The translations under genes were made by a program, and so were the position numbers. A stretch of DNA of 56,860 nucleotides from Oligoflexia bacterium (GTDB lineage Bacteria > Bdellovibrionota > UBA1018): NCBI GenBank assembly GCA_903881565.1, contig CAIRTR010000085.1, forward strand, positions 1 to 56,860. The letters run 5' to 3'. This document shows, one piece after another, positions 10,110 to 38,807 of this stretch (position 1 is its first letter; each line of letters begins with the position of its first letter). Below the pieces are notes generated by a model. The model searched no databases. It was not told the origin of the DNA and saw nothing but the letters and a program-made list of their open reading frames with translations.

Positions 10110-10894
10110 GCTTTAGCGTCTCCGCCGCCATGGCCTCCACCGCCTCTTAAATGCTCTTCGAGAAACACTTCCAATTTTTCTTTTAAGAAGTGAGGATTGA
10201 GTCCTTCTTGTATCCCCGTGACGCCCAGACGAATGACTTCTTTGACCATCATCCGCTGTTGGGCTTTCCGCTTCAATTTGGTCCCCCAAGGAATCAAGAT
10301 CAAGTTTGACAGCCCCACCCCGTAAACCGTCGCGACGAAGGCCACGGCGATCCCGTCTCCGATTTTCGAAGGGTCATTGAGCATCGACATAACGTGAATC
10401 AGACCCAAGACGGCTCCGATAATCCCGATGGTGGGCGCAAAACCTCCGGCGCCTTCAAAGACTTTTCCAGCCATTTCTTCTTCTTCAAACGTGATGTAGA
10501 TCTCGGTCTCCAGAATCTCTTTAACCGTATTGGGCTCAAAGCCGTCGATGACGAACTTGATGGAGCGTTTGAACATTTCGTTTTGAATCGTGTCTTTTTG
10601 CCCTTCGACGGCCAAGACACCCTCTTTTCGAGCAATGGTCGCAATGCGAACAATCTCCTCGATGACGGGCCGAAAATCCATGTCCACTTTCTTGTAAATC
10701 ACCGGAATCATCTGCACAGCGCGAATAATATCTTCAGTGGGATAAGCCACCAGCATCGCGCCCAACGTCCCCCCGACGACGATGATGGCTGCAGTGCCCT
10801 GCATGATTTGTCCGATATGGCCACCCTCAAGGAGTTGCCCCCCCACGATGGCGAAAAGACCCAAGAAACTTCCTACGACTGCGGCAATATCCAT
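10106..10894 (-). CDS. motA: Flagellar motor protein MotA
   Basis: MDIAAVVGSFLGLFAIVGGQLLEGG...APTIGIIGAVLGLIHVMSMLNDPSKIGDGIAVAFVATVYGVGLSN; start overlaps motB as a translationally coupled pair. Confidence 0.95.
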   Translation of the reverse strand: MDIAAVVGSFLGLFAIVGGQLLEGGHIGQIMQGTAAIIVVGGTLGAMLVAYPTEDIIRAVQMIPVIYKKVDMDFRPVIEEIVRIATIARKEGVLAVEGQKDTIQNEMFKRSIKFVIDGFEPNTVKEILETEIYITFEEEEMAGKVFEGAGGFAPTIGIIGAVLGLIHVMSMLNDPSKIGDGIAVAFVATVYGVGLSNLILIPWGTKLKRKAQQRMMVKEVIRLGVTGIQEGLNPHFLKEKLEVFLEEHLRGGGGHGGGDAKA

Positions 10895-17262: not shown

Positions 17263-18309
17263 TTGTCGCGCACTTTCATGAATTCACTAAAACCACTCTC
17301 TTTCATGAAAGGCACCAGACCTATGTCACTCCTTCAGCAAATCCACCAACGCGCCCTCGAACTCAGCACCCGTTACAAAAAGGCCGAAGCCGAATTGCTA
17401 GAAATTCTAGATCAGGTAGATCGCCACCGCGTTTATCTTGAGCAGGGGCACTCCAGCCTGTTTCTCTACGCCGTGCGGGGACTAGGTCTTTCCGAAGGCG
17501 TCGCTTACAACCTAATTACGGTTGCTCGCAAAGCGCGCGCGGTGCCTGAGATTAAGTCGATGATTGCCGAGGGCTCTCTGACCCTTTCCAATGCAAGAAG
17601 GATCACTCCCGTGCTCACGCCCCAAAACAAAAAGGAATGGTTGGAGAAGGCCGCTACCCTCTCCCAGCGGCAGCTTGAAAAAGAAGTTGCTAAAGTGAGG
17701 CCCCAAAGTGCGACGCAAGAGAGCGCAAGTTACGTATCGGAAACTCGCGTTAAACTTGAGGTCGGACTTTTCGAAAAAGACATGCTGGCACTTAGGCGCG
17801 TGCAAGACCTTTTGAGTCAAACGCGGGGTCGGGCGGTTTCACTTGAAGAAACCTTGGTAGCGATGACAGGTGAATACCTAAAACGCTTTGATCCGGTCCG
17901 CCGAGCTAAAAGGCAGATTGCGAAAAATGGCTCGGATTCGGCCCCGCAAGTCATACAGCCTGTATCGAGTCAGGCGATTGAGCCTGAAAAGACACGCAAA
18001 AAAACCACTAAACACGTCACCGGACGCGTCCCGATCCCCGCCCCACTCCTTCATCAAGTCCGACTCCGAGATCAAGGCCGATGCACCTACACACCGGATA
18101 ACGGAAAACGCTGCAACCAAAGCCGCTGGATCGAAATCCATCACAAAATCCCGGTATCCGAGGGAGGAGGCAACACTTTAGAGAATCTGACGACTTTCTG
18201 CTCGGCCCATCATGACTGGACTCACGCTACCGCTACAGCTCCATCCAATTCGCCCCTTGCGACGAATTCACCCGCAAAGGAACCGCCAAAGTCACAACAG
18301 TCTCCATGA
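17263..18309 (+). CDS. HNH endonuclease-domain protein (DUF222/13E12-like layout)
   Basis: C-terminal HNH: CTYTPDNGKRCNQSRWIEIHHKIPVSEGGGNTLENLTTFCSAHHDWTH; helical N-terminal region shared with ORF 50444..51472. Confidence 0.85.
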   Translation: MSRTFMNSLKPLSFMKGTRPMSLLQQIHQRALELSTRYKKAEAELLEILDQVDRHRVYLEQGHSSLFLYAVRGLGLSEGVAYNLITVARKARAVPEIKSMIAEGSLTLSNARRITPVLTPQNKKEWLEKAATLSQRQLEKEVAKVRPQSATQESASYVSETRVKLEVGLFEKDMLALRRVQDLLSQTRGRAVSLEETLVAMTGEYLKRFDPVRRAKRQIAKNGSDSAPQVIQPVSSQAIEPEKTRKKTTKHVTGRVPIPAPLLHQVRLRDQGRCTYTPDNGKRCNQSRWIEIHHKIPVSEGGGNTLENLTTFCSAHHDWTHATATAPSNSPLATNSPAKEPPKSQQSP

Positions 18310-22458: not shown

Positions 22459-23127
22459 ATGGAATCGGCGAATTACATACAAGGACTGGTAGCAGGTTTT
22501 CAGGCAGGCGGAGGGTGGATGATCCCCATCGCCATCGCTCTTGCCGTCTCGGTGGCATTTTCAATCGAGCGTTTTATTCGCCTCTACTTTCAATATAACG
22601 TGGATGGCGCGTCATTCATGTTCGAAATCCAAAAATACGTGCTCGCCAGCGACTTAGATGGCGCCATCCGCCTCTGCAATGGCACTGGCAAAGCGGCACT
22701 TCCTCGAGTTATCAAGGCTGGCCTTCAACGCGCTTCTCGAGATGAAACACAGATCCAAAACGCGATTGATGCGGCAAGCCTTGAGATTATGCCAAAACTT
22801 GAGCGTAGGCTCCCGTTCCTAGCTCTCATCGCCAATATCTCGACACTCCTAGGATTGCTGGGAACGATCAGCGGATTGATCAAAGCCTTCGCCGCCATCG
22901 CTCTTGCGGATCCAGCGCAACGCCAAGCGATTCTTTCCCACGGGATCAGCGAAGCCATGAATGCCACGGCCTTTGGTCTTTTAACCGCGATTTTCACGAT
23001 GATCTCTCACAGTATTCTCACGAGCAAAGCGAATCACCTTTTAGAGGAGCTTGATGAGTTTGGCGTGAAACTTCTGGATCTTCTGTCAGCGCGAAAATAT
23101 CGGCAGCCTTCGCAGCAAGCCGAATAG
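22459..23127 (+). CDS. MotA/TolQ/ExbB proton-channel protein (AglR-like)
   Basis: ISTLLGLLGTISGLIKAFAAIALADPAQRQAILSHGISEAMNATAFGLLTAIFTMISHS is a MotA_ExbB signature; SD aaaggag. Confidence 0.88.
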   Translation: MESANYIQGLVAGFQAGGGWMIPIAIALAVSVAFSIERFIRLYFQYNVDGASFMFEIQKYVLASDLDGAIRLCNGTGKAALPRVIKAGLQRASRDETQIQNAIDAASLEIMPKLERRLPFLALIANISTLLGLLGTISGLIKAFAAIALADPAQRQAILSHGISEAMNATAFGLLTAIFTMISHSILTSKANHLLEELDEFGVKLLDLLSARKYRQPSQQAE

Positions 23128-23140
23128 GAAACCAAAAAGC

Positions 23141-23713
23141 GTGCTAAAGCGCCCTACATCTAAACGAAAGAGTAAAAATCAGCAAATCGAGCTGAACCTC
23201 GTTCCAATTTTGGATACGATGGTAACCCTCATTGGTTTTCTGCTCTTTACAACCTCCTTTTTGGCCATTGTCAGTATTGAATCTCCCTTCCCAGAAACTA
23301 ATTCGGCGCAGGTTGAGAAGAAGATAAAAGAGCGGCCTTTACAGCTCACCCTCAGCCTTCGTGAGAAAGAATCGGAGCTTTGGAGTCCCTTTGAGAGAAT
23401 TCCAAGCAAAGTGATACCCCATGCTACTCCTGAGCTACCCACGGGTGTACCCCAACCCGACATCAAGAAAATTCACGACGCACTTATTGCCATCAAACAA
23501 CAGTTTCCCGAAGAAACGCAGCTCATCTTGGTCCCTAATCCCTCGGCAAACTATGACCTGCTCATTGGCGTGATGGACACGGCGCGCGCCATAGAGCCAA
23601 CAGATCCCCCGCTTTTTCGCAAAAATCCAAAATCCGGGAATTCTGAAACCATCAAAACCCTTTTTCCAGAAATCATCTTTGGGAACCTTCTTGAAACGGA
23701 AGGGGGCGCATGA
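23141..23713 (+). CDS. ExbD/TolR-like protein 1 (divergent)
   Basis: Single TM with acidic residue: IELNLVPILDTMVTLIGFLLFTTSFLAI; directly after the TolQ-like gene. Confidence 0.75.
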   Translation: MLKRPTSKRKSKNQQIELNLVPILDTMVTLIGFLLFTTSFLAIVSIESPFPETNSAQVEKKIKERPLQLTLSLREKESELWSPFERIPSKVIPHATPELPTGVPQPDIKKIHDALIAIKQQFPEETQLILVPNPSANYDLLIGVMDTARAIEPTDPPLFRKNPKSGNSETIKTLFPEIIFGNLLETEGGA

Positions 23714-24282
23714 GCTTTCGAAAATCCATCCGAGGACGTCGCGGCCGAAGACGTGTCTCCTCCCACTTCGAATTGCAGTTAACGAGCATGATGGATGTGT
23801 TGGTCATCATCGTTGTATTTTTGCTTAAGAGCTACTCCACGGCCACTAATCAGTTTAGCGCGATGGCGGGAGTGCAGCTCCCTTATTCGTTTTCGCAGGA
23901 TTCTCCGCCTGATAGCTTACATTTGATTTTGACCCCTGAAGCGATGACTTTTGAGAATGAGCGGATCTTGGAATTTACACGCTCCGCAGGCGATGTCGGA
24001 ACAAGCGACGCTTCCTATTCGCTCAGGCCTTCAGACACGGATGAAGGTGGCAGACGAGTCATCCCCCTTTATGATGCGCTGATCAAGGCTCGCAACAAGT
24101 CTGAGCTTTTGCGCGCAAAATCAACTAAGCGCGATGCGCAAGGCAATCCCCTTCCTTTTGAAGGCGTTCTTGCCATCCAGGCCGATAAGCGCGTGCATTA
24201 CGATACCATTAGGCGAGTCATGTACACGGCCGGCGCTGCGGGTTATAAAGTTTTCCGTTTTCTCGCGATGAAAAAAGAGTAA
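23710..24282 (+). CDS. ExbD/TolR-like protein 2
   Basis: FELQLTSMMDVLVIIVVFLLKSYS; ends DTIRRVMYTAGAAGYKVFRFLAMKKE, typical of ExbD; overlaps previous gene by 4 nt. Confidence 0.85.
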   Translation: MSFRKSIRGRRGRRRVSSHFELQLTSMMDVLVIIVVFLLKSYSTATNQFSAMAGVQLPYSFSQDSPPDSLHLILTPEAMTFENERILEFTRSAGDVGTSDASYSLRPSDTDEGGRRVIPLYDALIKARNKSELLRAKSTKRDAQGNPLPFEGVLAIQADKRVHYDTIRRVMYTAGAAGYKVFRFLAMKKE

Positions 24283-24291
24283 AACAAGAGC

Positions 24292-24888
24292 GTGCATAAG
24301 CGCTTTCATCCCATCCTCAGACTCTTCGCTCATATGCGAGCGAAAGCCTTTTCACCTTGGTTTTTGCCACTCATCTTTTTCCTCTCTTTCATCGATTTTT
24401 TTGTCGTCGTGATCCCGATGGATGCACTTGTGGTCGCTTCTGTTTTGCTTCGCAAAAAAGATTGGTTCAAAGTCTTCATCGTTGCAACGCTGGGATCGGC
24501 GCTCGGCGCGATTGCGCTGGCTTACGTTATTGATTTATGGGGAGAGCCCCTCGTGCGCGAACACTTGGGGACTTGGTACGTCGGCGAAACCTGGACCAAA
24601 ACCACCGAAATTATTTCAAAGCACGGGGCCTGGGGACTCATCCTCATCGCCATGACTCCACTTCCTCAACAAGTGGCCGTTGCTTTATGCCGATTTGCGC
24701 ATGTGTCTCTGTCTGCGATTTTCTTAAGCATCTTTGTAGGCCGAGGCCTTAAGTACTTTTTCTACGCCTATTGCGCGGCGTTTGCACCCAGGCTGATCAT
24801 GCGATTCAAATCAATCCGCGAAGAAACAGTGGAACTTACGACCGACGAAAAAGACGCATCAGTAGATGCGTCTACTAACGCGCCTTAA
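24292..24888 (+). CDS. Membrane protein of the YqaA/VTT (DedA-like) type
   Basis: FFLSFIDFFVVVIPMDALVVASVLLRKKDWFKVFIVATLGSALGAIALAYVI...ILIAMTPLPQQVAVALCRFAHVSL. Confidence 0.7.
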   Translation: MHKRFHPILRLFAHMRAKAFSPWFLPLIFFLSFIDFFVVVIPMDALVVASVLLRKKDWFKVFIVATLGSALGAIALAYVIDLWGEPLVREHLGTWYVGETWTKTTEIISKHGAWGLILIAMTPLPQQVAVALCRFAHVSLSAIFLSIFVGRGLKYFFYAYCAAFAPRLIMRFKSIREETVELTTDEKDASVDASTNAP

Positions 24889-24897
24889 GCGCGCGCA

Positions 24898-26925
24898 TTA
24901 CTTCCCACCGGAACTATACTTAAACGCGTAACTCACTTGCACAATGCCTGCTCCGCGTGGAATCGGAAACTGAATCCGCTTTAGGACGCCCAAAATACAA
25001 CGCTCCGTATTGGCATTATTAAGGGTCGTGGACTCCAGGCCCGCTTGGGTCACGATGCCCGAAGCTCCGATGACAAAACTTGTTCCTACGCGCCCCGCGA
25101 GATGGGGATTTTCAGCGTTGATTTCTTTTTCATAACACAGTCTAAATTCATCCCGATGAGCGAGAATTGCCGCTTCAACCGCATCACGATCAATCGCTCC
25201 CATCACAACCGTTTCTTCATCGCCGCCCATCCGAATCGCCACACGCGTTTGTCCGCCCACAATGCCACTGCCTGTGCCCGCAGCTCCCATGCCAGTGCCC
25301 ACGCGTGCGCCACCTCGGCCTTCATTAGAAAGCCCGCCTAGGGTCGTCGCATCTGTCCCCCCACCGCCTTTGCTTGCACCCGAAAGCGCAAGACCACCGC
25401 CGCCGCCAGTATCAAAGCCCCCAAATCCTTTAAGTTTTGAGCCACTCTTTCCAAGCTGGGCCGCACTATTTCCTAAGAGATTTTCAATTTTTCCAGCGGC
25501 TGATTTAAGAAGATCCAAATTACCTTGATCTGCAACCTGACTGTTTCCGCCCCCTTTGCCTTCTCCTCCATCAGGGGCGGCACGCTTGGCCTGCTCTTGT
25601 TTTTCCAAATCCTTTTTGGCCGTTTTTGAGCCACGGGTCCCCTCTTTGCCCTTCGCGCGCGCGCCCTTGCCGCCTTGCGCTTTGAGTTGAGCTTTAGGTT
25701 TCGCATTCTTCTTTATAGCCGCGGCTGCCGCGTTTTTCTCCAGGGCTTTGGCGCCGACATTCATTTCCTTAGGGACGGGCTTGTTGGGCTCCGCATTCTT
25801 AAGTTCCAGCGCAATTTTCTCCAGCGCGGGAGGAGCTTCCTTGATCACCGGCCTCTTTGCCGAAAATTTTTCTGGCTGATAAAGGATCGTCGCAATACGC
25901 TCCGGCACCTGCTCGGGTTCGACATTTTGCGGCACATTGATCTTGAGCAGGGCCGTGATCATGATTGCCGAAAGTAAAAAAGAAGCGCCAAAGATCTTGA
26001 AAAAAAGCGGATCCCGCTCAATCATTTTGCTAGGCTTAAGCTTGGGCGGCGCCGCCGTGAAACTCAGATAAAAATCTAAAGCCCCCAGCGTGATCTTCGC
26101 AAAATCGTCTTTGCCGAGCGAAACCTGATAGGCCTGCTTTAATTGATCTAAGTTTTGCAGTTGTCCGTTTCGATGAACAACGCCCTTCATGGGGACATCG
26201 AGATTCAAAACGTAATCTTTACCAACGCGTGTGACTAAATCAAACAAGCCCAGAGGCGCAAGCTGAGGCATGAGCTGAGGAATTCCAAAATCCGCTTCGC
26301 GAGTGGGTCCGATGCTCACTTTGTCTGCTTCGACAAAATGTTTCACATCCAAAACGCCATCGGAGCCAGCGGTATTCCAGGAAAACACAATCTCCAGCGC
26401 CTGCTTTTGGGTAGGCCGATAATCAAAAATTTCTCTCACAACAGATTCATCTTCCAAAAGCAGCGAAGTAAAGTCCTCTTTAGGATCCAGAAAAAGCTTT
26501 CGGCCTTCGGCTTCTTTTGAAGGAGGCGCCAGGGCATTTGATCCCTGCGGTCTATCCAAGGAAAACTTAAAGCTATGCCGACCAATGGTCAGTTTGCTGC
26601 CTCCTTCTAAAACCTCCAAAACAGTTTTCTTGCCGTTTACGAAGATCCCCGTTTCACTGGCTAAATCAAATACTCTGACCTTGCCATCTTCGCTCTGCTC
26701 GAGCACGGCGTGAAGGGGCGCCACGCCATCACCCGTGACGCGCAGATCTGCTGAAACCACCGAACCCACCACGATCCGATCTTTATCAAAGCGAAAAGTG
26801 CCCTCGACACTCTCTAAAACCATCACGGCCTTTTTGCGAGTGGGCGCGATCACGTCGCGAAACCCTTCAATTGCTTTTGTAGGATCGGGGGCTGCCTCGT
26901 GAGGCGGTTTTGTTTTATCGGTCAT
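24898..26925 (-). CDS. FHA domain / TM / low-complexity linker / AgmX-TonB-like C-terminal domain protein (GltG-like)
   Basis: FHA-like repeats (VVGSVVSADLRVTGDGVAPLHAVLEQSEDGKVRVFDLASETGIFVNGKKT...LTIGRHSF), one TM (FKIFGASFLLSAIMITALL), Lys/Gly linker, C-terminus DAVEAAILAHRDEFRLCYEKEINAENPHLAGRVGTSFVIGASGIV...RIQFP...VQVSYAFKY. Confidence 0.83.
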   Translation of the reverse strand: MTDKTKPPHEAAPDPTKAIEGFRDVIAPTRKKAVMVLESVEGTFRFDKDRIVVGSVVSADLRVTGDGVAPLHAVLEQSEDGKVRVFDLASETGIFVNGKKTVLEVLEGGSKLTIGRHSFKFSLDRPQGSNALAPPSKEAEGRKLFLDPKEDFTSLLLEDESVVREIFDYRPTQKQALEIVFSWNTAGSDGVLDVKHFVEADKVSIGPTREADFGIPQLMPQLAPLGLFDLVTRVGKDYVLNLDVPMKGVVHRNGQLQNLDQLKQAYQVSLGKDDFAKITLGALDFYLSFTAAPPKLKPSKMIERDPLFFKIFGASFLLSAIMITALLKINVPQNVEPEQVPERIATILYQPEKFSAKRPVIKEAPPALEKIALELKNAEPNKPVPKEMNVGAKALEKNAAAAAIKKNAKPKAQLKAQGGKGARAKGKEGTRGSKTAKKDLEKQEQAKRAAPDGGEGKGGGNSQVADQGNLDLLKSAAGKIENLLGNSAAQLGKSGSKLKGFGGFDTGGGGGLALSGASKGGGGTDATTLGGLSNEGRGGARVGTGMGAAGTGSGIVGGQTRVAIRMGGDEETVVMGAIDRDAVEAAILAHRDEFRLCYEKEINAENPHLAGRVGTSFVIGASGIVTQAGLESTTLNNANTERCILGVLKRIQFPIPRGAGIVQVSYAFKYSSGGK

Positions 26926-26938
26926 AAATTTTTAGTTC

Positions 26939-27232
26939 TCATTTTGTCATAAGAGCATCACGAAGCATCTCGGGATGGAAGTTTTTCCGCCGTTTAACCC
27001 AAGAATCAAACTTCTCTTCGTTACGGTTTTGAAAATAAAACTCCCCCGGCGCTTTGACCTCTCCTTGAATATTGATTCCATCAAAATTAAGCTCTGTTTT
27101 TTTAGGAAATACCGTTCGAACCTTTTTTCCACCACTACTCACGGGCTCCTCCGCCCAAACCGGGCAAGCCACCCAAAAGCTCAGCAAGAGTGCAGGCAAA
27201 AGAAACCCTATTTGTCTTTCCATACCCCACAC
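26939..27232 (-). CDS. Small secreted protein (possible CglF/GltF-like gliding component)
   Basis: Signal peptide LLPALLLSFWVACPVWAEE then ELNFDGINIQGEVKAPGEFYFQNRNEEKFDSWVKRRKNFHPEMLRDAL; sits between the TPR and FHA genes. Confidence 0.65.
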   Translation of the reverse strand: MWGMERQIGFLLPALLLSFWVACPVWAEEPVSSGGKKVRTVFPKKTELNFDGINIQGEVKAPGEFYFQNRNEEKFDSWVKRRKNFHPEMLRDALMTK

Positions 27233-30200
27233 ACCTTTCTTAAACGATCCGTAGAATCTTTTTCAAACCCTACCAGTTTGACCCCATCCAATTCTTTGAG
27301 AATCTCCAGACACTTAGCCGCGCCTTCAAGACCGGCAGGACCGGCGAGTGCCGCTTCATGAAAACTGCGGGCAAATCGACCTGAAGGCTCAGAACCCATC
27401 GCTCGCATGCCTTCTCCCGACGTTGTCCCGCCCGTCCCTTGAGAACATACGGCAAGACCCACTTTTACTTCTAGCGTATCAGCGGCCTCTTTCGCCGCTT
27501 TTTCAAAACTCAGTTTTGCTTTTGCAAAAAGCCGATAATAAGCAAGCAATTCTCCGCGATTAATGAGCGCAGGTAAAAAACCGTCTTTTAAATGCAGGGC
27601 CTGTGTAAAGCCATAATTTGCTTCAGCGGCGGCGGCCCAATCTTCTTCACCTTCTGCCGAGAGCGTCATAGCGGCGCGATTGTTCAAAGCCGAAACACTT
27701 TTAGGCGCTAAAGCCAGCGCCCGCTCATAAGCGATTCGCCCCAGGATCGGTTTGCCTTGCCCCCAAAGCAAGTTTCCGTAGTCAACCCACGCTTCACCCT
27801 CCTCAGGGTTTTTGAGAAGCCGTTCACGCGTTTTTTCAAAGGCCGGCGCCAAGCCCATCGTTCCACCATCCGGAGCGATCCCTGCTATTCGAAACCGCCC
27901 GCGAACGCCTTGTGCACGCCCGAGTGCCCCAACACCCGCAACGGTTGTGATTCGAGCGTCCGCAAGGCCATCCGCAATTTCGGGAAGGGCGGGGCTCAAA
28001 ATTTCTGAAGCCGCGGCCTTTGAATAAGCCTCAGCCCAGGTCGAAAAAGCCTTGGCACGAAGAGGGACACTGAGCGCTTCTAAATTCTTTTTAAACTGAG
28101 CTTGAAACACGGCCAAATCGGTCCCGGGACTCACCGTGGCAGGAGGAGGAATTCGGTCAATCTCGTCTGCAAAGCTATAGGCCCATACCCCTAGGCGATG
28201 AAGTCCTGCAATGCCCCAAGGACCGCCAACTTCGACGGCGGCCGCATAAGCTTTCGTGAGAGGCTCCAAGAACCACATCCGCTGATCAAGCGCTTTTTTC
28301 AATTGAGTTTCGGGTAGCTGCAAACTTTCAAAATGGGCTTCACTCTCCATCATTTCAGCCAGGCGAAAACGCGCATACCCCACAAAAGGCGAGAAGGACT
28401 CGACCTTGCCTTTTTGTCCTGAACTGCTCGAAGTCACGAGTCCCGCCGCTTTTTTATACATCCCTTTGGCTTGAACGGTTTCCCCGGACTTCAACAAAAG
28501 ATCTCCTAACCGAGAAGCACACTCGGCATCGATTTCAGCAGGTCCCGTCAGACAAAACTTAAAAAGCCGATTGGCTTCGCTCTCTTTTTCGGACCGAGTG
28601 TAGGAGCGCGCAAGCGCGAGCGCCACCGACCAGCGAAGGGGAGATTTTGGATGAATCGTGAGAAAGGCTTCCCGGGTTAATTGCGATTTAGCGATTTCCC
28701 CTTCACCCTCAAAAACGCGTGCGGCCGTCTCCAAAGATTCAGGAGTCCCGCCTTCTCGCCCCAGCTTTTCAAAGAGTCTCGCAGCCGTAAGCATCGCCCC
28801 AGTGATGAACCATCCCGTTGCGGAATTTCGAATCGCTTCAAGCGCCTTGGGACTTTTTGGAAAACGCTTCAGCCACTCCCCACTGACTCGCTCCGTATCT
28901 GAAGCCAGTGCCGCTTTTTGAAAACTCAACAAGGCATTGGCAAAAGTTTTTTCCGAGACATCTCGCGCTACGGTTTCAAGAGCCAAGGCCTCATAACCCC
29001 TCGCGGCCTCCGCAAAATCCTTACCACGCTCCTGTTTTGCAATGAGCCCAATCTTGAGCCTCTGTCCCAAATCCGCTAGAAACAGCTTCAGTTTTCCGGC
29101 CGCGTTTTGTTGATCGTTGGCCAGGATTGCCGCATTTTCACCCAGCTCCTTCACGGCCAGCTTGAGTCCCTCTACATTGCTACGGACTGGGTCCGAATCC
29201 ACCGCCATCGACGCAACCGTTGGGACTTGGTCCGAATAAATCTGAAGCCACAAACGAGCTGCAATGAGGGCCTGGTTAGATTTGGGTGTCCGATCCACAA
29301 TCGCTTTAAGTCTTTTGACCGCCTCTTTTTGAGAGCCGGGATAGCCTGCCAACACTTGCGCGGCCTTCAAAGCAGAGTCTCTCCCTTCTGCGGTATCTCC
29401 CAACGAAGTCTGAAGGGTATCGGTGGCTTCTACGAATTGTTTTTCCAGATCAGACGGGTCAGTGGCTTTGCTCTCGGTTTTACCCTGTTTTTGAATCGCA
29501 TCCGCAAGACTTGCCGTCCAAAGTGCCGCCGCTTCCTTGGCATAGCGCTCGTCTCTTGAATCTACCACTTTACGATAAATATCCGACGCCTCGGACAACT
29601 TCCCGAGGTCGCGTTTCACCTCGGCAAGATACATCTGAATCTCAGGAGTTTCCTTGCGGCTGTCTTCAGTTGATAGAAAAACACCTAAGTAAGCCGAATA
29701 ATACGCCTCACTGACGATTAAGGCCTCACGATTGGATTTTCTTCGATACTCGTCGTGATGCTCCGTCGCAGTCCTCCGAACCATGGCCCGAAGATTCTGC
29801 GCAGCCGTCAACGTCTCGGTATCGCCACTTTTTGGTATAGTCAGTTTCTGAAGTCGCGTCAGCGCGTCGTTATGTCGACCTCTTCTCAAATCCAAATCGA
29901 TGAGCTTCACCACGACGCGAAAAGCAGAGTCGCTTCCGGGATGGGTCTTTAAGAGCGTTTCATATACTTCCGTGGCCTTTTCAGGCTGTACATTGCGCTC
30001 GTACTGTCTGCCGAGTCGCTCCAGAAGTTTTGGAAAAAAGGTTTTATCCCCTGAGGTCGTATTAAAATAGGCCAGCGCGTCTTGAACTTTTCCATCTTCA
30101 GTCATAAAGACCGCCATGTCCCGCAGCGCTTCTTCTTTCAGAGACAGAAACTTCTCTCCCCCTTTGGTCGCGATTTCGACCGCTTCTTTAAGGGCAAGCA

Positions 30201-30933
30201 CGGCACGATCGGGCTGGCGCATCCGATAAAACACCCAAGCCAGTTTATGCAAAATCCTGGGTTTCTGCTCAGGATTAGCGCCCTTGGCTGCAGCCTCAAA
30301 AAGTGATTTTGCTTTTTGAAACTCCCCTGCCTGAAAGGCAGAATCTCCTAACTCGCGATAAGCATCCGAGACATAGACACTCTGGGGGAATTTTTGGATC
30401 AAATATTCAAAATACCGAAGACTTTCCTCGCGAGCCCCCAGCTCTGCCGAGTTATAGGCTAGAAAATAGTAAACCTGATCCAGTCGCTCATAGGCGATCC
30501 CCAGAGCCAGGATTTCCTTGCAAGCCTTGATTCCCGCTCCCAGATAGAACCTTGAATGAGAACGATCAATCGTTGGGCTTTCCTGGCCCTTCTCGAGTCG
30601 TTTCTCGTGCGCTCGCCCCTCAAGAAGAAACTCCGCCCGATATCCCTCTAAATCAAGCTCAGCTAACCTTAGATACAAATCCGCCCTTCGATTCTCTGGA
30701 GCCCGCCTGCCCAGGGCAATTCGAATTTGGGTGATCTCTTGTCCGCGAAGCTCCCGGATTTTCGCTTCTTCTGAAGATTCAGCGCTTCGGATTTCGGAAT
30801 CAGAGTAGGCAACAGCAATTGCCGCAGGCCCGGACCAAGCTAAAGTAACAGGGGCCGCTAATCCCAGAAAAAAAATTACACACACGAAAGCCCGTGCTCC
30901 CAACACTTTGGTCGCCTTCTTACTCACGTGCAC
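27208..30933 (-). CDS. Large secreted TPR protein (GltD/AgmU-like candidate)
   Basis: Signal-peptide-like N-terminus and many TPR-like units (YFLAYNSAELGAREESLRYFEYLIQKFPQSVYVSDAYRELGDSAFQAGEFQKAKSLFEAA; ALALAPKSVSALNNRAAM). Confidence 0.85.
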   Translation of the reverse strand: MHVSKKATKVLGARAFVCVIFFLGLAAPVTLAWSGPAAIAVAYSDSEIRSAESSEEAKIRELRGQEITQIRIALGRRAPENRRADLYLRLAELDLEGYRAEFLLEGRAHEKRLEKGQESPTIDRSHSRFYLGAGIKACKEILALGIAYERLDQVYYFLAYNSAELGAREESLRYFEYLIQKFPQSVYVSDAYRELGDSAFQAGEFQKAKSLFEAAAKGANPEQKPRILHKLAWVFYRMRQPDRAVLALKEAVEIATKGGEKFLSLKEEALRDMAVFMTEDGKVQDALAYFNTTSGDKTFFPKLLERLGRQYERNVQPEKATEVYETLLKTHPGSDSAFRVVVKLIDLDLRRGRHNDALTRLQKLTIPKSGDTETLTAAQNLRAMVRRTATEHHDEYRRKSNREALIVSEAYYSAYLGVFLSTEDSRKETPEIQMYLAEVKRDLGKLSEASDIYRKVVDSRDERYAKEAAALWTASLADAIQKQGKTESKATDPSDLEKQFVEATDTLQTSLGDTAEGRDSALKAAQVLAGYPGSQKEAVKRLKAIVDRTPKSNQALIAARLWLQIYSDQVPTVASMAVDSDPVRSNVEGLKLAVKELGENAAILANDQQNAAGKLKLFLADLGQRLKIGLIAKQERGKDFAEAARGYEALALETVARDVSEKTFANALLSFQKAALASDTERVSGEWLKRFPKSPKALEAIRNSATGWFITGAMLTAARLFEKLGREGGTPESLETAARVFEGEGEIAKSQLTREAFLTIHPKSPLRWSVALALARSYTRSEKESEANRLFKFCLTGPAEIDAECASRLGDLLLKSGETVQAKGMYKKAAGLVTSSSSGQKGKVESFSPFVGYARFRLAEMMESEAHFESLQLPETQLKKALDQRMWFLEPLTKAYAAAVEVGGPWGIAGLHRLGVWAYSFADEIDRIPPPATVSPGTDLAVFQAQFKKNLEALSVPLRAKAFSTWAEAYSKAAASEILSPALPEIADGLADARITTVAGVGALGRAQGVRGRFRIAGIAPDGGTMGLAPAFEKTRERLLKNPEEGEAWVDYGNLLWGQGKPILGRIAYERALALAPKSVSALNNRAAMTLSAEGEEDWAAAAEANYGFTQALHLKDGFLPALINRGELLAYYRLFAKAKLSFEKAAKEAADTLEVKVGLAVCSQGTGGTTSGEGMRAMGSEPSGRFARSFHEAALAGPAGLEGAAKCLEILKELDGVKLVGFEKDSTDRLRKVCGVWKDK

Positions 30934-32515
30934 TCACCTTTTTGCCTCGTCCGTCGGGCGTGTCGCGACACTCTGATTCAAGACCAAAAACATAGTCCCC
31001 GAGTTCGTCATTCCAGAATTCGCCATTAAAAGACCAATAATACTGATAATTTTTTCGACTCGGCCGCTCGTTACCTCGGGCCCGTTCCAGCGCTGAAGGC
31101 CGCTTATTCATGAGCCGCTCCTTGGCATGCTTGAGCATCTCAAGCTTGATGAAGGCCATCTTCTCAAAATTAGAAATCAAAGCCGCATGGGTTTCGATCA
31201 TCCCATTTTTCACGAATCCGCCCCCTAAAACACGAAGCGACTCTCCTCGCCAATCCAAAACCTGATTCAAGAAACCCGCAAAGCCTTTCCCCGACGTAAA
31301 ACTCACACCTTTAAGCATCGCTGAAAACTGCTCGACGGCCTGCCGCTCGGAGCGAACGTCTTTTTCAGCCTTTACCAGCCCCTGAAAATAGGGACTCCGC
31401 ACAAAGCCATTGATCATTTGATGGGTTTCATTTGAAGAATAGAGGGACTCACCTAACGCCTTTTTACCGAGTTCAAAAAAAGCACCGAGATCAGCGGATT
31501 GATTTTCGACAAACTCTTTTACAACTTCTCCCACATGAGAATATTGCGCATTGTACTCATTAATAACCTGGTTCGCGTCGTCATAAAGGCAAAGACTTAA
31601 GAAGGTTTGAGCTCTTAAGACGTCCACTTCAGAATTGAAAACGAACTTGAGCGCAGGACTTTTATACGAAACCAGCTTTCCTAAGGTGCGATTATATTCC
31701 TGCCGGCCAAAAGAGTTCCAGGCCTGCTCAAAAAGGATGTCTGGCCACACGAAGCTCGCCTTGGGAATTCGATCATAGGTCCGGTCGGCATCATCAAAAC
31801 GATCCATCTGATAAAGCGTACGGGCTTCGCCTGCTAGGCAGCGATTTTTAAGATCGTCATATTCACGAAAACGCGCTTCGGTTTTTGCTTCCCGCCCGGC
31901 ACGCGCTTGGCACGCTCTAAAATCCGCAAGCGCCAATGCGTCTTTACCCAAAATCGCATGCGCCGAGCCCCGAAGTTGCAAGGCAAAGGGCCACAAAGGG
32001 GTGGTTTCATTCATGCCTGAAAAGTACTTTACGGCGGCATCGGATTTTCGGGTCAAGAGCGCGTCCTTCCCTAAAGAGAAGAGATAAGCGCTTTTATTGA
32101 TGGAGTCATAGTCCTGATACTTGGTGTGACGAATGAGATAGGGTCTGATCAGTTCGCCGCCTAGGCTTAGGAGCAGTGATTCTGTTTCAGTTAAGACACG
32201 CCGAATTGCGGAGGGTTCCCCGCTTTGAAGCGTTTTGATAAAGAAGTAAGAAGCAGCGTTCGGAAGCCCCGCCTTCACTAAACTCAGCGTGATCCAAGAA
32301 TAGGCCGTATGAACGACTTTTGAATCACTGGGGGCATGTTCTGCTGCTGCAAAAGCATAACGGGCCGCCTTAAAGTACTGCCCCGACTCAAAGAGCTTTT
32401 GTGAATCATGCAAATATGAAGTCGAATCGGGCTCTTCAGCAATTGCAGTCGTCGAAACAAAGACAACTAAAGCCGCAAACCGAGCCCAAGACCGAAACGG
32501 TAATTGGAAAACCAC
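30920..32515 (-). CDS. Secreted TPR-like protein (GltE-like candidate)
   Basis: GTG start with signal peptide RFAALVVFVSTTAIAEE; QKLFESGQYFKAARYAFAAAEHAPSDSKVVHTAYSW and similar helical repeats. Confidence 0.75.
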   Translation of the reverse strand: MVFQLPFRSWARFAALVVFVSTTAIAEEPDSTSYLHDSQKLFESGQYFKAARYAFAAAEHAPSDSKVVHTAYSWITLSLVKAGLPNAASYFFIKTLQSGEPSAIRRVLTETESLLLSLGGELIRPYLIRHTKYQDYDSINKSAYLFSLGKDALLTRKSDAAVKYFSGMNETTPLWPFALQLRGSAHAILGKDALALADFRACQARAGREAKTEARFREYDDLKNRCLAGEARTLYQMDRFDDADRTYDRIPKASFVWPDILFEQAWNSFGRQEYNRTLGKLVSYKSPALKFVFNSEVDVLRAQTFLSLCLYDDANQVINEYNAQYSHVGEVVKEFVENQSADLGAFFELGKKALGESLYSSNETHQMINGFVRSPYFQGLVKAEKDVRSERQAVEQFSAMLKGVSFTSGKGFAGFLNQVLDWRGESLRVLGGGFVKNGMIETHAALISNFEKMAFIKLEMLKHAKERLMNKRPSALERARGNERPSRKNYQYYWSFNGEFWNDELGDYVFGLESECRDTPDGRGKKVSARE

Positions 32516-33195
32516 GCATTCTCCCCCGTCGTGCCGTAAATCGGCGCGCTATAATAAGCTCCCATGACATCCAAACGAACTGTCCACATTTGCGAAATAT
32601 GATATTGATGTCCTGTGGCTGCAAAAAAGGAAAACAACTTCTGATCCGCAAAACCTGACGCCGCCGAAGTCCCCTCGATCCTAGAATTCAACGTTCCCGC
32701 ACCCCCGGCAAAATACCAATCAAAATAAAGAATGGAGTTAAAGACATTGATCTTCGCATACCAAGGGACCCAATGAATAAGTCCACCCATCTCAGATCGT
32801 ATCTCTCGTACCACCGAAAGCGCGTTAGGTGCCGCCTGCGCAAAAGCTTTGAAAGTATTATTTTCAGAGTTCATTACGCCCACGAAAAAGGCTTCAATTC
32901 CGAGTTCTTCGGTAAAGTAGTAGGCGACTCGCGGATCAATGTGAAAGGTCATTCGGTAGGGATCAGAAAGTCCCGGCCCTCCCATCACACTCAAGAGCAA
33001 GTGGTCTGATTTTGAATAACGCCGGTTTTGTAAAACATAAACCTGCTTATCCGTATCAAGCCAATTGAAGTTATATTCATCGGAAGCTTGCGCCGCTTGC
33101 GCCCAGCTGAAGGCTACGAGAAGAAGCCACAGCAGTGCGATTGCAACACCCGCTATCTGAAACCCCCATCCATGGTAATTTCCGTTGCTTTTCAT
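32467..33195 (-). CDS. Predicted outer-membrane beta-barrel protein
   Basis: N-terminal signal region, alternating strands, C-terminal NAWFSNYRFGLGLGLRL barrel-like ending. Confidence 0.7.
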   Translation of the reverse strand: MKSNGNYHGWGFQIAGVAIALLWLLLVAFSWAQAAQASDEYNFNWLDTDKQVYVLQNRRYSKSDHLLLSVMGGPGLSDPYRMTFHIDPRVAYYFTEELGIEAFFVGVMNSENNTFKAFAQAAPNALSVVREIRSEMGGLIHWVPWYAKINVFNSILYFDWYFAGGAGTLNSRIEGTSAASGFADQKLFSFFAATGHQYHISQMWTVRLDVMGAYYSAPIYGTTGENAWFSNYRFGLGLGLRL

Positions 33196-33199
33196 GATC

Positions 33200-36142
33200 T
33201 TAATTTAGTGTATCAACGGGTCCTTTGGGACAGCAACCGAAAAACGGGCATTTTTCACATCGAGCGCTGTATTTTGGAATTCCAGGGACGCCGCTGGCAA
33301 TTTCAGAGGCAAGAGCATTGAGATTCTGCCAAGATTTTGACGCTTCTTCAGTTTCTATCTTGTATTCATGGACCTCAGCACCAGAAATGTTCACGATCCA
33401 AGCTTCAACGTGAGGAGGATTCACTTGCTGCGCCGTTAATCTTGATACGGCGTCAACATAGAGTGCCATCTGGGTTTGATAGTTGGCCCTGAGGTCCTCG
33501 ATTTTCGCAGGGCGAGAGGTAATCTTGAAATCAATGACCTGCGCCCTGTCTCCCTCAAGCACTAACCGATCCATCGCGCCCACCAGAGCCTGCCCGCCAC
33601 TCATCGGAATTTCGAAAGCAAGCTCCGCCCACACCCTGCGCTCGGGTCTAGATTCAGGCAACATCAGTCGAGAGTTCATGGCCCACTCCCTAATCCGTTT
33701 TGAATTCACGCGATATTTTCCGGCTAAAACTTCCAAATCATCGAGCCTTGCCCAATCCCCTCGCTCAAGCGCCTGATGAACTTCGGTCCCCACTTCAACT
33801 TGCGTCATGGCCCCGCCGCCCACTCGTTTGAATTTTGGAGCGGCGGCGTCGTCATCACTTTGTAATTCGGGTATCTCTGTAGGTCCTTCCGCAGGAATCA
33901 CCACCGGCTGATGCGCCGGAGTGACTGGCCTCACATAGGTCCACTCATAAGCTCTGGGACAACGAGCAAGAAGGTTCCATTCGGAAACGCTGTGACGGGA
34001 TCTGATCTGTGCCGGGCTCTCATGATTTTTTGCGATCAAATAACCTTGCGCAGGACCCAAAAGTTTCGAGGGCCCGCGCGAAGCTGAAACGCGCCGTGTT
34101 TGCACCAACGCTCCCCGTTTAAAGACCTGGGATGAATCCAGCCAGGCTCTCCACCAATCTTCTTGATAGGTTTTTCCCTTTTCTTCAAGCTCGGTGATTT
34201 TTTCGGGCTTTGGGATCGCCTCACAAACCATGATCAGCCGCTCTTGAGGCCGGGTGAGCGCGACATAGAATAGCCGTTTACTTTCGGCAAGCTCCTTTTC
34301 ATTTTCGAGCTGTTTCCACTTATTATCGACTGGATTTTTGCGATCGCGCTCCCCCTCGGGAGTTCGAGAAGCGAGATGCGCGCCTTGATTACGATCCCAA
34401 TACAAAAGTGGCGCATCCGCCCCGCGCGTTTTTTTCCCGAAGTCGACCAAAATGACATGAGGAAACTCAAGTCCCTTGGCCCCATGCAGAGTCATCACGA
34501 TGAGCTGACCTTGATTGCGCGGGGGAGGTAAATCCTGTGCTCTCCTACCCTCTTTGATCGCCAGAGAAATCTCCCGAACCACTCCCGAAAAATCCACTCC
34601 AGACGAAGAAAGCTCTTCGACTCTATGCCACAGCCCCAGGTACGAGACTCCAAGCTCCTGCTCCGCCTCGGGAGTTACCAAAAACGCGGCACTTAACACT
34701 TCCGCCGGTCGCACGCTTTTCTTCAACAGCGGCGCCAAGGCCCGCGCGATCGGATAATCAGACCCTATAAAAGCAGCCCAAAACGCATTTTTCCCAAGAC
34801 TCACCCACTCATCAATCTGCGCATCGGGAATCCCCACCCAAGGGGCCCGTAAAAAGCTGACGGCCGAAACCGACAAATCCTGCAGTTCCCACCACCTGAG
34901 CAAAGCCACCATTTCGCGTACCCGCGGTTCATCCCAAAAAAATCCGCCGCTGCCTACGACCACGGGAACGCCTGCGGAAATCAGAGACTGAAGCCAACGT
35001 TCATTACCGCGAATTCGGCGCATGAGAATGGCCATGTCCTCAAGCGGAACCCCTTTTTCACGCTCCGCCAGAATCCAAGAGGCCAGCTCCGCCGGGTCTT
35101 CAACATCAAGGCGCAAAACACTGGGGGTATCATTGGGCGGCCGCCTGGGAACCAAGGCCTCAAAGGCCACCGGAGAGTTCTCAAAAGTCTGCGCACACAA
35201 TTCATTCACAAAATGAATGATTCCGGGTCGACTTCTAAAATTCCAAGTCAACGAATGCTTGCCCGGGAGTTTGGAACAAAACTCTTCAAACACCGCAACG
35301 TCCGCGTCTCTAAACCGATAAATCGATTGTTTGGGATCTCCAACCACACAGAGATTTGAAAAATCTGGTTTCACAAATCTTGTAACAATCTGCGCCTGCA
35401 CCGGATTGGTGTCCTGAAACTCGTCAACCAAGATCAAATCAAACCGTTTCTGAAAAACCCTCGCGATCTCGGGGTGCGAGAGAACGCGAGAAGCCCCCTT
35501 TTCAAGGTCATCAAAGTCAATTGCGCCTTGCCGCATCTTCTTTTGCTCGTAACGAGCCAATACAAAGTCAAAAACCCGATTCAGCGCGAGGCTTCCGGGA
35601 TCCGAGAGCTTTGCCAAGCCCTCACCCGCCCCAAAATGTGCGAGGCGCTTCAAGCGATCCAAGAGATCCACGAGCGACGCGACGCTCTCTCTGAAAAGCA
35701 AAAGATCCAAAGCGCCAGATAACTCCTCAGGCAAACCATCTGCCCATAAGGCTTCGACCGATTGTTCCCAGAGCATTTTTGATTCAAGCTCCGAAAGCAC
35801 TCTCTCTTCACCATCTTTGCCTGCTGATCTTGGAAACTCGCGCAAAACCGCGCCGCAAAATCCATGAATCGTCATGACCCAATGAGATTCCAAAGGTCGT
35901 AGGGGTTTGAACCTGCCCAACACTTGGGTGAGCTTCACTCTTAAATCACTCGCCGAGCGCTCCGTAAAACTAATCGCTGCAAATCTTGCCTCTGGGTTGC
36001 GCTCCAAAAGAGCCTCGCACTTTGCAACGAGCGTCGTCGTTTTACCAGAGCCCGCGCCGGCCAAAACCGCCATCCCGCGCCCCCAGGATTCTACGACGGC
36101 ACGCTGTTCAACAGACAGGCGAGACAAGGTTTCGCTACTCAC
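33200..36142 (-). CDS. addA: AddA-type UvrD/RecB-like helicase-nuclease
   Basis: SVEQRAVVESWGRGMAVLAGAGSGKTTTL, DLILVDEFQDTNPVQ, VVGDPKQSIYRFR, VMTLHGAKGLEFPHVILVDF; nuclease GAMDRLVLEGDRAQVIDFKI...QMALYVDA; GTG at 36142 overlaps the addB stop. Confidence 0.87.
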   Translation of the reverse strand: MSSETLSRLSVEQRAVVESWGRGMAVLAGAGSGKTTTLVAKCEALLERNPEARFAAISFTERSASDLRVKLTQVLGRFKPLRPLESHWVMTIHGFCGAVLREFPRSAGKDGEERVLSELESKMLWEQSVEALWADGLPEELSGALDLLLFRESVASLVDLLDRLKRLAHFGAGEGLAKLSDPGSLALNRVFDFVLARYEQKKMRQGAIDFDDLEKGASRVLSHPEIARVFQKRFDLILVDEFQDTNPVQAQIVTRFVKPDFSNLCVVGDPKQSIYRFRDADVAVFEEFCSKLPGKHSLTWNFRSRPGIIHFVNELCAQTFENSPVAFEALVPRRPPNDTPSVLRLDVEDPAELASWILAEREKGVPLEDMAILMRRIRGNERWLQSLISAGVPVVVGSGGFFWDEPRVREMVALLRWWELQDLSVSAVSFLRAPWVGIPDAQIDEWVSLGKNAFWAAFIGSDYPIARALAPLLKKSVRPAEVLSAAFLVTPEAEQELGVSYLGLWHRVEELSSSGVDFSGVVREISLAIKEGRRAQDLPPPRNQGQLIVMTLHGAKGLEFPHVILVDFGKKTRGADAPLLYWDRNQGAHLASRTPEGERDRKNPVDNKWKQLENEKELAESKRLFYVALTRPQERLIMVCEAIPKPEKITELEEKGKTYQEDWWRAWLDSSQVFKRGALVQTRRVSASRGPSKLLGPAQGYLIAKNHESPAQIRSRHSVSEWNLLARCPRAYEWTYVRPVTPAHQPVVIPAEGPTEIPELQSDDDAAAPKFKRVGGGAMTQVEVGTEVHQALERGDWARLDDLEVLAGKYRVNSKRIREWAMNSRLMLPESRPERRVWAELAFEIPMSGGQALVGAMDRLVLEGDRAQVIDFKITSRPAKIEDLRANYQTQMALYVDAVSRLTAQQVNPPHVEAWIVNISGAEVHEYKIETEEASKSWQNLNALASEIASGVPGIPKYSARCEKCPFFGCCPKGPVDTLN

Positions 36143-38807
36143 TGCCCCCCCCTCCCTCTTCTTCTTCGGGCGCACTGGTGAGCCTACGAAACCCACAACA
36201 ATCCGAAACCCGACAACGATCACAGTCCTTGCGCATCTTGGGGGCGGCCGAATATTGCCCGGATTTCATTTTCTCAACTTCGGCACCGAGATGAGCTTCA
36301 AATCTGCGCCAAACCTCATCATAACTTTCCTCCGCATCCTCGCCCATCAGACTTCGCGAATTCGCGCGCAGATTAACCCACGCGCCTTCCTGTTTTCCGG
36401 AGACTTCAGGGAAAAACACCCCCTTGGTGCGGGTGCCCTGCTTCGTGAGTTCGACGAATTGAATACCCATTACGGGCTTATGTAGGGTCTTTTGCGCCGC
36501 CAACGCGTAAAACGGCAATTGCAGTCGATAGGACAGATTCAACATGTCTGAACCATGTGGGAGAGCTGAGCTTGTCTTAAAATCCGAAATCAACAGCGCC
36601 TCGGCATTCTCCTCGATACGATCGGGCCTACCCTTGATGGTCACATCTCCGATGTGCAGCTCAAGAGTCATGTCATCAATCGCCACGGTCTTTGTTTGCG
36701 CGCGATCCCAAAATTCTTTTTCACGTTTCATGAATACTTCTAGAATCTGCGCCAATTGCTTCTTGATGACGTTTACAATTCGAGTGCTCTTCATCAAACC
36801 CTGAGGAGGATGCTCCGCCCACACCTCTTCAACAGTATCCAAAGCGGCTTTCCCAAACTGGACGCCTGCATCTGAGCCATCCGAAAAAATCCGTGACTTT
36901 AGGAGCCGTCCCACGCACTCATGAAGCAACGATCCACGAACCTGCGGCCAAAGCACAATGTCTGCTTCTTCCTGCTCAAACACCCGCCAACGATCCACAA
37001 CCAGCGAGAGGAGCCCACACTGACTGGCATGATCGAGAGCCGTCGCTGTAAACTCTAACCCGCGCGCGGGGAGACTCACTTCTTGAGGAGGTAAGCTTCG
37101 AAACGGATTGTAACTTTGAGCAAAACGGGGGTGAGTGCCCTTGTCTGAAAATTCCAGCTCCGCAACCCCTAATTCTCTCATAAGACTCTGAAGAGGCTCT
37201 CGCTCTTTACCATCAGGATCATAGGCGGCATCGAAAAATGAGACGGCCTTGGCACGCGTTAACCAACCCCACAAAATATTACGCCGCTGATCGCAACGGC
37301 TTCGGGTTGAATGCAGGCCAAACTCAGGAGCTAAAAGCTCGCGATCTCTTACCGAAAACCACAAGTCTCCCTCTTGCGCGCGCTCCAACCAGTCGGCGGG
37401 CGCGCCAAAAATCCATAGTTTTTCATAATGGATCAGAGAAGCATTCTGAAGACGATAAAGGGCCACCCCTTGTGCTGGCTTAAAATGAGGCGCTGGGGGA
37501 TTTGCCTGCGAAAGACGGTCCTGGGCGCGTTCAAGCCAAAAACGAGGGGGCGCTTTTTTTGAAACACTCCCCACCCTTGATAGATCATCCGCAAAGGTCT
37601 CCCAGAAACTTTCAAAAAAGCTCACCCACTCCTCAAACCCCTGCGCCATTTCGCGAAGGATCTTCACGTGAGCCGCACCCATTTCACGACAAGTCTTTTT
37701 CCCATTTAGAATTTCAAAAATGCCGCTGAGCTCCCCTCGAAGCTCCGCCAATTTTTCGCCCGAATAAGCGTTCAGGCCAGAGCGAATTCCTTTTTGATGA
37801 ATCTCCTTGATCCACTGGAACCTAGGCGTTTGTGCCGCTTCAGGTCTCGGCCACTGGGTCACCCATCGCAAAACCTCGTTGCGCGCAAAATCCCGACCCA
37901 TGAGCTCTAACGGCAAAAGAGCTTGCTTAGCGGCTTCATCCCATTTAAGGCGCGTTGGATCCCTGGGATCTAAAAGGGGAATCCCCCTGCCCTCTAATGC
38001 TCTGAGCAGACTTCTTCTGACTTTGGGGTCATCAGGAATTAAGACCGCGGCGTTTGCCCAGGCTCGATCCACGAGCAGCTCATCGGCTAACCCTTCAGCT
38101 GAATCATCAAGACTATGCCAACGCTGCCACTGCATTTGGGGAAAGACGCCTAAAACTTCAGCACACCCGAGATCTAGGACCTCTAGTTGCGTGACTTGCG
38201 CAAGTGTCTCCCAAAAAGTTTTCTCCAGGCCTTCGGGAGTCCGAGCACTGAGAAGCCTGAGCAGAGTGGGAACTCCAACGACGCCATCCTCGAGCGCTTG
38301 AATCGAATCGCGTAAGAGTCTAGGCAAATCCCAATGTCCAGTGGCCCCAATCCAAGCCTCGTAAGCTTTCGCAAGGCCTCGCACCTCAACGCGCAAAGGG
38401 TTTTCCCCGAAATGCTCAGTCAAACGTTGATCAAAGACGGCTTCTTCTTCTTCATGCGAAAAAGCCAGGCGACCATTTTGAAGCGCGCGATCCAGTTTTC
38501 TAAAAAAATTCTTCTGCCGTCGCAGTTCCTTGACTTCGTGAAGATGCTCTCCAATATGGCGATTCGCGACGAGCGTGCGCAGAATCTCCTCGCGCGCCGT
38601 CGCACCCAAAATACGCTCACCCACCGGATGCCCCGTATTGCGCTCCACAATCCCCGCGCAAAGATCCGGCAGCGTCGTAATGGCGTTCGACACCAGGGGA
38701 ATCCCTTCGAGCAGAATCTGATTCTTCACTTCTTCGCGGGAAATCCCGGTTCCCACACAAAGCTGAGCAAGGGGCTCCAGGCCGCCTAGGTCTTCAAACA
38801 TCAACAT
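36135..38807 (-). CDS. addB: AddB-like PD-(D/E)XK nuclease subunit
   Basis: C-terminal nuclease RGSLLHECVGRLL, KGRPDRIEENAEALLISDFKTSS, YRLQLPFYALAAQ, Cys cluster DCDRCRVSDCCGF; upstream of addA; no Walker A seen. Confidence 0.8.
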   Translation of the reverse strand: MLMFEDLGGLEPLAQLCVGTGISREEVKNQILLEGIPLVSNAITTLPDLCAGIVERNTGHPVGERILGATAREEILRTLVANRHIGEHLHEVKELRRQKNFFRKLDRALQNGRLAFSHEEEEAVFDQRLTEHFGENPLRVEVRGLAKAYEAWIGATGHWDLPRLLRDSIQALEDGVVGVPTLLRLLSARTPEGLEKTFWETLAQVTQLEVLDLGCAEVLGVFPQMQWQRWHSLDDSAEGLADELLVDRAWANAAVLIPDDPKVRRSLLRALEGRGIPLLDPRDPTRLKWDEAAKQALLPLELMGRDFARNEVLRWVTQWPRPEAAQTPRFQWIKEIHQKGIRSGLNAYSGEKLAELRGELSGIFEILNGKKTCREMGAAHVKILREMAQGFEEWVSFFESFWETFADDLSRVGSVSKKAPPRFWLERAQDRLSQANPPAPHFKPAQGVALYRLQNASLIHYEKLWIFGAPADWLERAQEGDLWFSVRDRELLAPEFGLHSTRSRCDQRRNILWGWLTRAKAVSFFDAAYDPDGKEREPLQSLMRELGVAELEFSDKGTHPRFAQSYNPFRSLPPQEVSLPARGLEFTATALDHASQCGLLSLVVDRWRVFEQEEADIVLWPQVRGSLLHECVGRLLKSRIFSDGSDAGVQFGKAALDTVEEVWAEHPPQGLMKSTRIVNVIKKQLAQILEVFMKREKEFWDRAQTKTVAIDDMTLELHIGDVTIKGRPDRIEENAEALLISDFKTSSALPHGSDMLNLSYRLQLPFYALAAQKTLHKPVMGIQFVELTKQGTRTKGVFFPEVSGKQEGAWVNLRANSRSLMGEDAEESYDEVWRRFEAHLGAEVEKMKSGQYSAAPKMRKDCDRCRVSDCCGFRRLTSAPEEEEGGGGSE

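Follow-up and report, generated by a model that had tools for sequence, protein, structure and literature searches.

A probable core Glt/Agl trans-envelope machine encoded in a Bdellovibrionota genome

Overall composition of the locus

The window, a 56,860-nucleotide stretch of DNA, carries at positions 22459-33195 a locus that very probably encodes a core trans-envelope machine of the Glt/Agl kind in a member of the Bdellovibrionota. The encoded parts are probably a proton-driven motor and a set of envelope-spanning proteins pulled by it. The machine is of the type of Bdellovibrio bacteriovorus Bd0828-0838 and corresponds to the core complex that Luciano et al. defined in 2011; it is not a new system. 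It is the core machine that also drives Myxococcus gliding, and the copy in the window may serve gliding, prey attachment or surface transport. What is observed directly is the identity of the genes, the layout of the domains, the conserved residues and the clade of the motor, and the conserved gene order. The locus comprises the following features.

22459..23127, + strand: aglR, MotA/TolQ/ExbB-type channel subunit, 222 aa (Pfam MotA_ExbB, 1.8e-27)
23141..23713, + strand: first ExbD/TolR-type subunit (AglQ/AglS-like), 190 aa (Pfam ExbD, 1e-10)
23710..24282, + strand: second ExbD/TolR-type subunit (AglS/AglQ-like), 190 aa (Pfam ExbD, 2.1e-11)
24292..24888, + strand: VTT/DedA-family membrane protein (PF09335, 34.7 bits, cut-off 33.9)
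24852..24873, - strand: terminator-like hairpin immediately past the gltG stop, with 9 pairs and a T tract (consensus match only)
24898..26925, - strand: gltG, 675 aa (NCBIfam GltG, 2.6e-51; FHA, 2.4e-07)
26939..27232, - strand: gltF (cglF), secreted, 97 aa (NCBIfam CglF, 1.2e-06)
27208..30933, - strand: gltD-gltE in one frame, secreted TPR protein, 1241 aa (profile mapping)
30920..32515, - strand: gltC, secreted, 531 aa (NCBIfam GltC, 5.1e-25)
32467..33195, - strand: gltB/gltA-type outer-membrane beta barrel, 242 aa (OMP_myx_plus, 70.4 bits, cut-off 60)

Every part of the locus has a family match in Pfam or NCBIfam, and chance is excluded because of the E-values and a gene order kept across dozens of genomes. 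The NCBIfam equivalog cut-offs were missed by far, with 175 of 650 bits for GltG, 88 of 450 for GltC and 28.5 of 90 for CglF. No GltG exceeded this cut-off in the Myxococcota genomes searched either, where the best reached 472. An earlier note had proposed a Glt/Agl-like trans-envelope machine for motility or cargo here. All of its open reading frames are found where it placed them, on the same strands, and its assignments hold as GltB/A-C-D(E)-F-G with AglR and two ExbD-type subunits. The one-to-one correspondence, which it had left as inference, is now supported by models or by gene order, at scores below the equivalog cut-offs.

The AglR motor

The AglR-type channel and the two ExbD-type subunits share one operon, in which the second ExbD gene overlaps the first by 4 bases. 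In an alignment of 16 ExbD-type subunits, drawn from six genomes with eight sets between them, Asp25 in the transmembrane segment was invariant (16/16), including both subunits of the window. Judged by sequence, this residue is the ion-carrying Asp, and both subunits keep it. On the channel side, T136 and T170 of AglR were invariant among 18 aligned AglR proteins, at positions in the two membrane segments that line the channel in the MotA/TolQ/ExbB-type family.

In a tree of 54 AglR-related rows, from which M. xanthus itself is absent, all glt-linked motors of Bdellovibrionota and the R-plus-two-ExbD motors of Myxococcota formed a clade of 29 rows (support 100/99), and TolQ/ExbB formed a separate group of 19 rows (support 100/99). 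The AglR of the window clustered with its own family and with L065. The best single curated model for it is the generic TolQ (76.8 bits, below the cut-off), there was no Agl motor model among the NCBIfam matches of the window motor, and a sequence comparison with solved structures gave generic TolQ/ExbB matches only.

The VTT/DedA gene just downstream of the second ExbD gene had been left out of the gene list in the earlier note. We considered it as a machine component and rejected it, as no homologue was present in any other fetched glt locus. It is probably a local insertion outside the machine.

GltG, periplasmic proteins and the outer-membrane barrel

The AgmX/PglI tail of GltG reached 75.5 bits, above its cut-off of 40. 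The structural model of GltG, which is confident in the folded parts only, places an FHA domain at 34-124 and a further beta-rich domain at 175-291, followed by a single TM helix (~306-329) and, after a disordered low-complexity linker of low confidence, a C-terminal alpha/beta domain (562-672). As modeled, GltG thus has a cytoplasmic FHA and second beta domain, a TM helix and a TonB-like periplasmic C-terminal domain. The best Foldseek matches of the model all fell on the FHA part, and solved structures were matched by sequence through a kinesin FHA only. Judged from the sequence of the window GltG, the residues by which an FHA domain recognizes its target seem degenerate. As for the hairpin following gltG, 29 terminator-like sites were observed against 15.9 expected in shuffles, while the promoter scan gave no excess over shuffles.

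In the case of the periplasmic proteins, GltC, GltD and GltE are all present and clustered, with GltC below its equivalog cut-off. When a profile was built from the 1241-aa protein, GltD frames of relatives matched its region ~27-980 and their next, separate frame, GltE, matched ~980-1200. The separate GltD and GltE frames of relatives therefore map to two parts of one profile, and the 1241-aa protein is GltD and GltE in one frame. This long form occurs in all complete same-family loci examined and in several Bdellovibrionia loci. The 531-aa protein was identified as GltC because of its match to the GltC model, its TPR content being only marginal by Pfam. Of the two secreted TPR genes claimed in the earlier note, that of 1241 aa was borne out, whereas the 531-aa protein had no TPR family over the cut-off. 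GltC also carries a conserved C-terminal motif, GE[FY]W.DE; the start codon of its gene is uncertain, and gltC and gltB overlap by 49 bases. GltF, which is the same protein as CglF (PMC4488436), has a motif, DFEG..VEGE, common to Myxococcota loci.

The barrel was modeled from 60 sequences with eight strands at a mean pLDDT of 86, and the model matches the folds of OmpA, OprF, NspA and OmpW. Only one copy is present here, where relatives in the Bdellovibrionia and Myxococcota mostly have two. An AddA-like helicase-nuclease gene (33200-36223, - strand) ends 4 bases before gltB, and such a neighbor recurs in L067, L073, L075, L076, L077, L082, L084 and L066.

Conservation of the glt block and its motor

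GltC was found in 87 of the 97 relatives. L067, L072, L074-L078, L081, L082 and L084 all keep the order barrel-GltC-GltD(E)-GltF-GltG; eight of these loci belong to the window's own family, and two, L072 and L084, lie beyond those eight. Conservation of this block extends over Bdellovibrionota and Myxococcota. Among 80 named MAG or genome loci, the R-Q-S genes lay directly downstream of the glt block in 35, a motor was absent in 25, and most of the remaining loci were cut by contig ends. Because a GltC alignment guided the scan, the numbers hold for loci that carry GltC and not for genomes at large. Myxococcus was absent among the best 80 of 506 relatives in a GltC scan of genome contigs.

The position of the motor varies, being directly downstream in Bdellovibrionia and convergent with gltG in the family of the window. 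The convergent gap is 214 bases in L075, 135 in L077 and 557 in L078, and reaches ~3 kb in L081 and ~8.5 kb in G010; no motor was found near the block in the same-family loci L067, L074 and L082. The conservation of the locus as a unit, on which the earlier note had made its proposal depend, stands for the glt block, while the motor is detached from the block in some relatives. Separately, in Myxococcota/Deltaproteobacteria loci with a motor-less glt block (L135-L159), a TolQ-clade channel and ExbD-like genes lie ~5-6 kb upstream of the barrels.

Comparison with known systems

In M. xanthus, the core complex consists of AglR, Q and S with GltD, E, G and C, and an interaction between AglR and GltG was shown (PMC3169522); GltA, GltB and GltC bind one another (PMC4488436). 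B. bacteriovorus has four expanded sets, of which Bd0828-0838 is nearest to aglRQS (Luciano et al. 2011, PMC3169522). The locus shares with Bd0828-0838 and the Luciano core AglR, two ExbD-type subunits, GltC, GltD, GltE, GltF, GltG and a GltA/B-type barrel, and GltH-K were reported absent from Bd0828-0838 (PMC3169522). The gene order of Bd0828-0838 is that of the Bdellovibrionia loci L068, L192 and L195. Compared via MAG and genome relatives rather than the HD100 sequence, the window differs in having one barrel and not two, and a convergent and not a downstream motor. A further difference is that GltD and GltE are in one frame, as they are in some Bdellovibrionia loci. With the AglRQS-GltA-K machine of M. 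xanthus, the locus shares AglR, AglQ/S, GltC, GltD, GltE, GltF, GltG and GltA/B, by models or order. In contrast to that gliding machine, no GltJ-like protein, MglB or MglA-sized GTPase was found in the genome of the window, and scores stayed below the equivalog cut-offs. As a phylum-wide compact core of putative gliding function from which several Myxococcus parts are apparently missing, the window-type locus helps define the minimal machine.

The genome, which is 98.75% complete, holds three Agl/Glt sets, that of the window (C85), C177 (L054) and C217 (L055). The only three proteins in it with an AgmX/PglI tail are the GltG of these sets, and so no GltJ-like protein was seen. No Robl/LC7 match to indicate MglB was found in the genome, nor an MglA-sized GTPase; the sole Arf-like match lies in a 967-aa frame, with PF00025 taken as a proxy that lacks a Myxococcus positive control.

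Proposed mechanism and function

We infer assembly, ion flow and the path of force as follows. AglR and the two different ExbD-type subunits would form an ion-driven inner-membrane motor acting on GltG, in which the TM helix and a long, flexible linker would connect the FHA side in the cytoplasm to the TonB-like domain in the periplasm. From there GltG would hand force to periplasmic GltD-E, GltF and GltC, which would then pass it to the GltA/B-type outer-membrane barrel. By moving laterally or in cycles, this chain would shift an outer-membrane-anchored complex or a surface adhesin, and slow gliding, attachment to prey or surfaces, or surface transport may be the outcome. We regard a role in adhering to, or gliding on, surfaces or prey as rather likely, and other envelope transport as a reasonable possibility.

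The strongest alternative is that the locus encodes a Glt/Agl relative without a motility role, either an Nfs-like mover of surface polymer or cargo or a support of envelope growth. Such a relative would fit a genome in which nothing GltJ-like was found besides the three GltG, and no Robl/MglB or MglA-sized GTPase; the Myxococcus core paralogue Nfs does non-motility work (PMC3169522, PMC3858216), and the core is also present in bacteria for which gliding is not known (PMC3169522). However, Bdellovibrio glides and was also reported without GltH-K (PMC3169522), and prey attachment needs the aglS gene Bd0838, whose transposon mutant lost prey attachment, killing and rounding (PMC6561027). We consider this alternative possible, if on balance doubtful. 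A 2026 review regarded the machinery by which Bdellovibrio glides, its motor and its adhesins as still unidentified (PMC13104615).

It is quite unlikely that the motor and glt operons are chance neighbors and that the motor works for a different Glt set among the three that the genome holds. The convergent layout with the VTT gene in between, the wide gaps in L081 and G010 and the three same-family blocks with no motor seen nearby would agree with chance, but C177 and C217 have their own adjacent R-Q-S, a convergent motor recurs beside glt in L075, L077 and L078 and farther off in L081 and G010, and the motor follows the block directly in 35 of the 80 loci of the scan.

A Tol-Pal or TonB-type energiser for outer-membrane maintenance or nutrient import, with GltG in a TolA- or TonB-like role, was the alternative raised in the earlier note, and it is very unlikely: the locus does share with these systems the channel/ExbD motor superfamily, TolQ as its best curated motor model and a TonB-like force transducer in the GltG tail, but the motor falls in the glt-linked two-ExbD clade apart from TolQ/ExbB, the cluster has no TolB, Pal or TonB-dependent receptor, and GltC, GltF, GltD and the barrel have specific Glt relatives, so that the motor tree and the missing partners led us to reject it.

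Paralogous sets and MIDAS/VWA lipoproteins

The core Glt/Agl machine of the window differs from the two paralogous sets of its genome. The operons in C177 and C217, as well as those of the Bdellovibrio Bd1473-1483 type, share with it an R-Q-S motor, a GltD-like protein, a GltG tail protein, a barrel and a GltC-like protein. Unlike the window, C177 and C217 have the motor genes first, followed by GltD, GltG, the barrel and GltC, with a short GltG without FHA match and a divergent GltC. In the GltC tree, the window grouped with its class and with L065, L066, L079 and L080, and C177 and C217 grouped with other paralogous sets, a placement that carries a long-branch warning. Upstream of each motor in C177 and C217, small secreted proteins that look related to one another gave no family match.

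A VWA/MIDAS lipoprotein adjoins AglR in C217 (L055:16213-17772, - strand), L191 and L194, follows GltC in L193 and L196, and lies upstream of the barrel in L065 and L080. Beyond those, among the fetched loci it occurs only in L129, ~15 kb off; there was none in C177 (L054) and none near the window-type set. The DxSxS motif aligned in L055, L191, L194, L065, L080, L196 and L129, and the C217 candidate has an NCBIfam match and no Pfam match. From these sequences, the paralogous Agl/Glt sets usually appear to carry a MIDAS/VWA lipoprotein; all of the loci had been fetched for their glt/agl genes, and the pattern is a contrast between set types and not a genome-wide enrichment. The lipoproteins are candidate motor-linked adhesins.

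Bdellovibrio has four tonB/agl operons, including Bd1473-Bd1483 (PMC2797640), and Bd1483, like the MIDAS proteins of the paralogous sets, sits in an agl operon. Deletion of bd1483, which encodes a MIDAS protein, left ordinary predation normal (PMC11003981), Bd1481 (aglR) and Bd1483 mutants were impaired on biofilms (PMC2277423), and bd1480 (aglQ) was induced on surfaces (PMC9140294). As a speculative extension, Bdellovibrionota might run several parallel Agl/Glt machines, each with its own surface cargo, where the MIDAS/VWA lipoprotein of the paralogous sets would be an adhesin like Myxococcus CglB and the window-type set would be a simpler attachment or gliding motor without MglA/MglB and GltJ. 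The link between Agl sets and MIDAS proteins names motor-adhesin candidate pairs testable in culturable Bdellovibrio.

Elsewhere in the window, an 838-aa secreted-looking protein (52594-55110, - strand) gave no NCBIfam match, and a flagellar-type MotB and MotA pair is encoded at 9204-10109 and 10106-10894 on the - strand. Two related-looking proteins with HNH-type ends (17263-18309, + strand, and 50444-51472, - strand) have weak matches to an IscB model.
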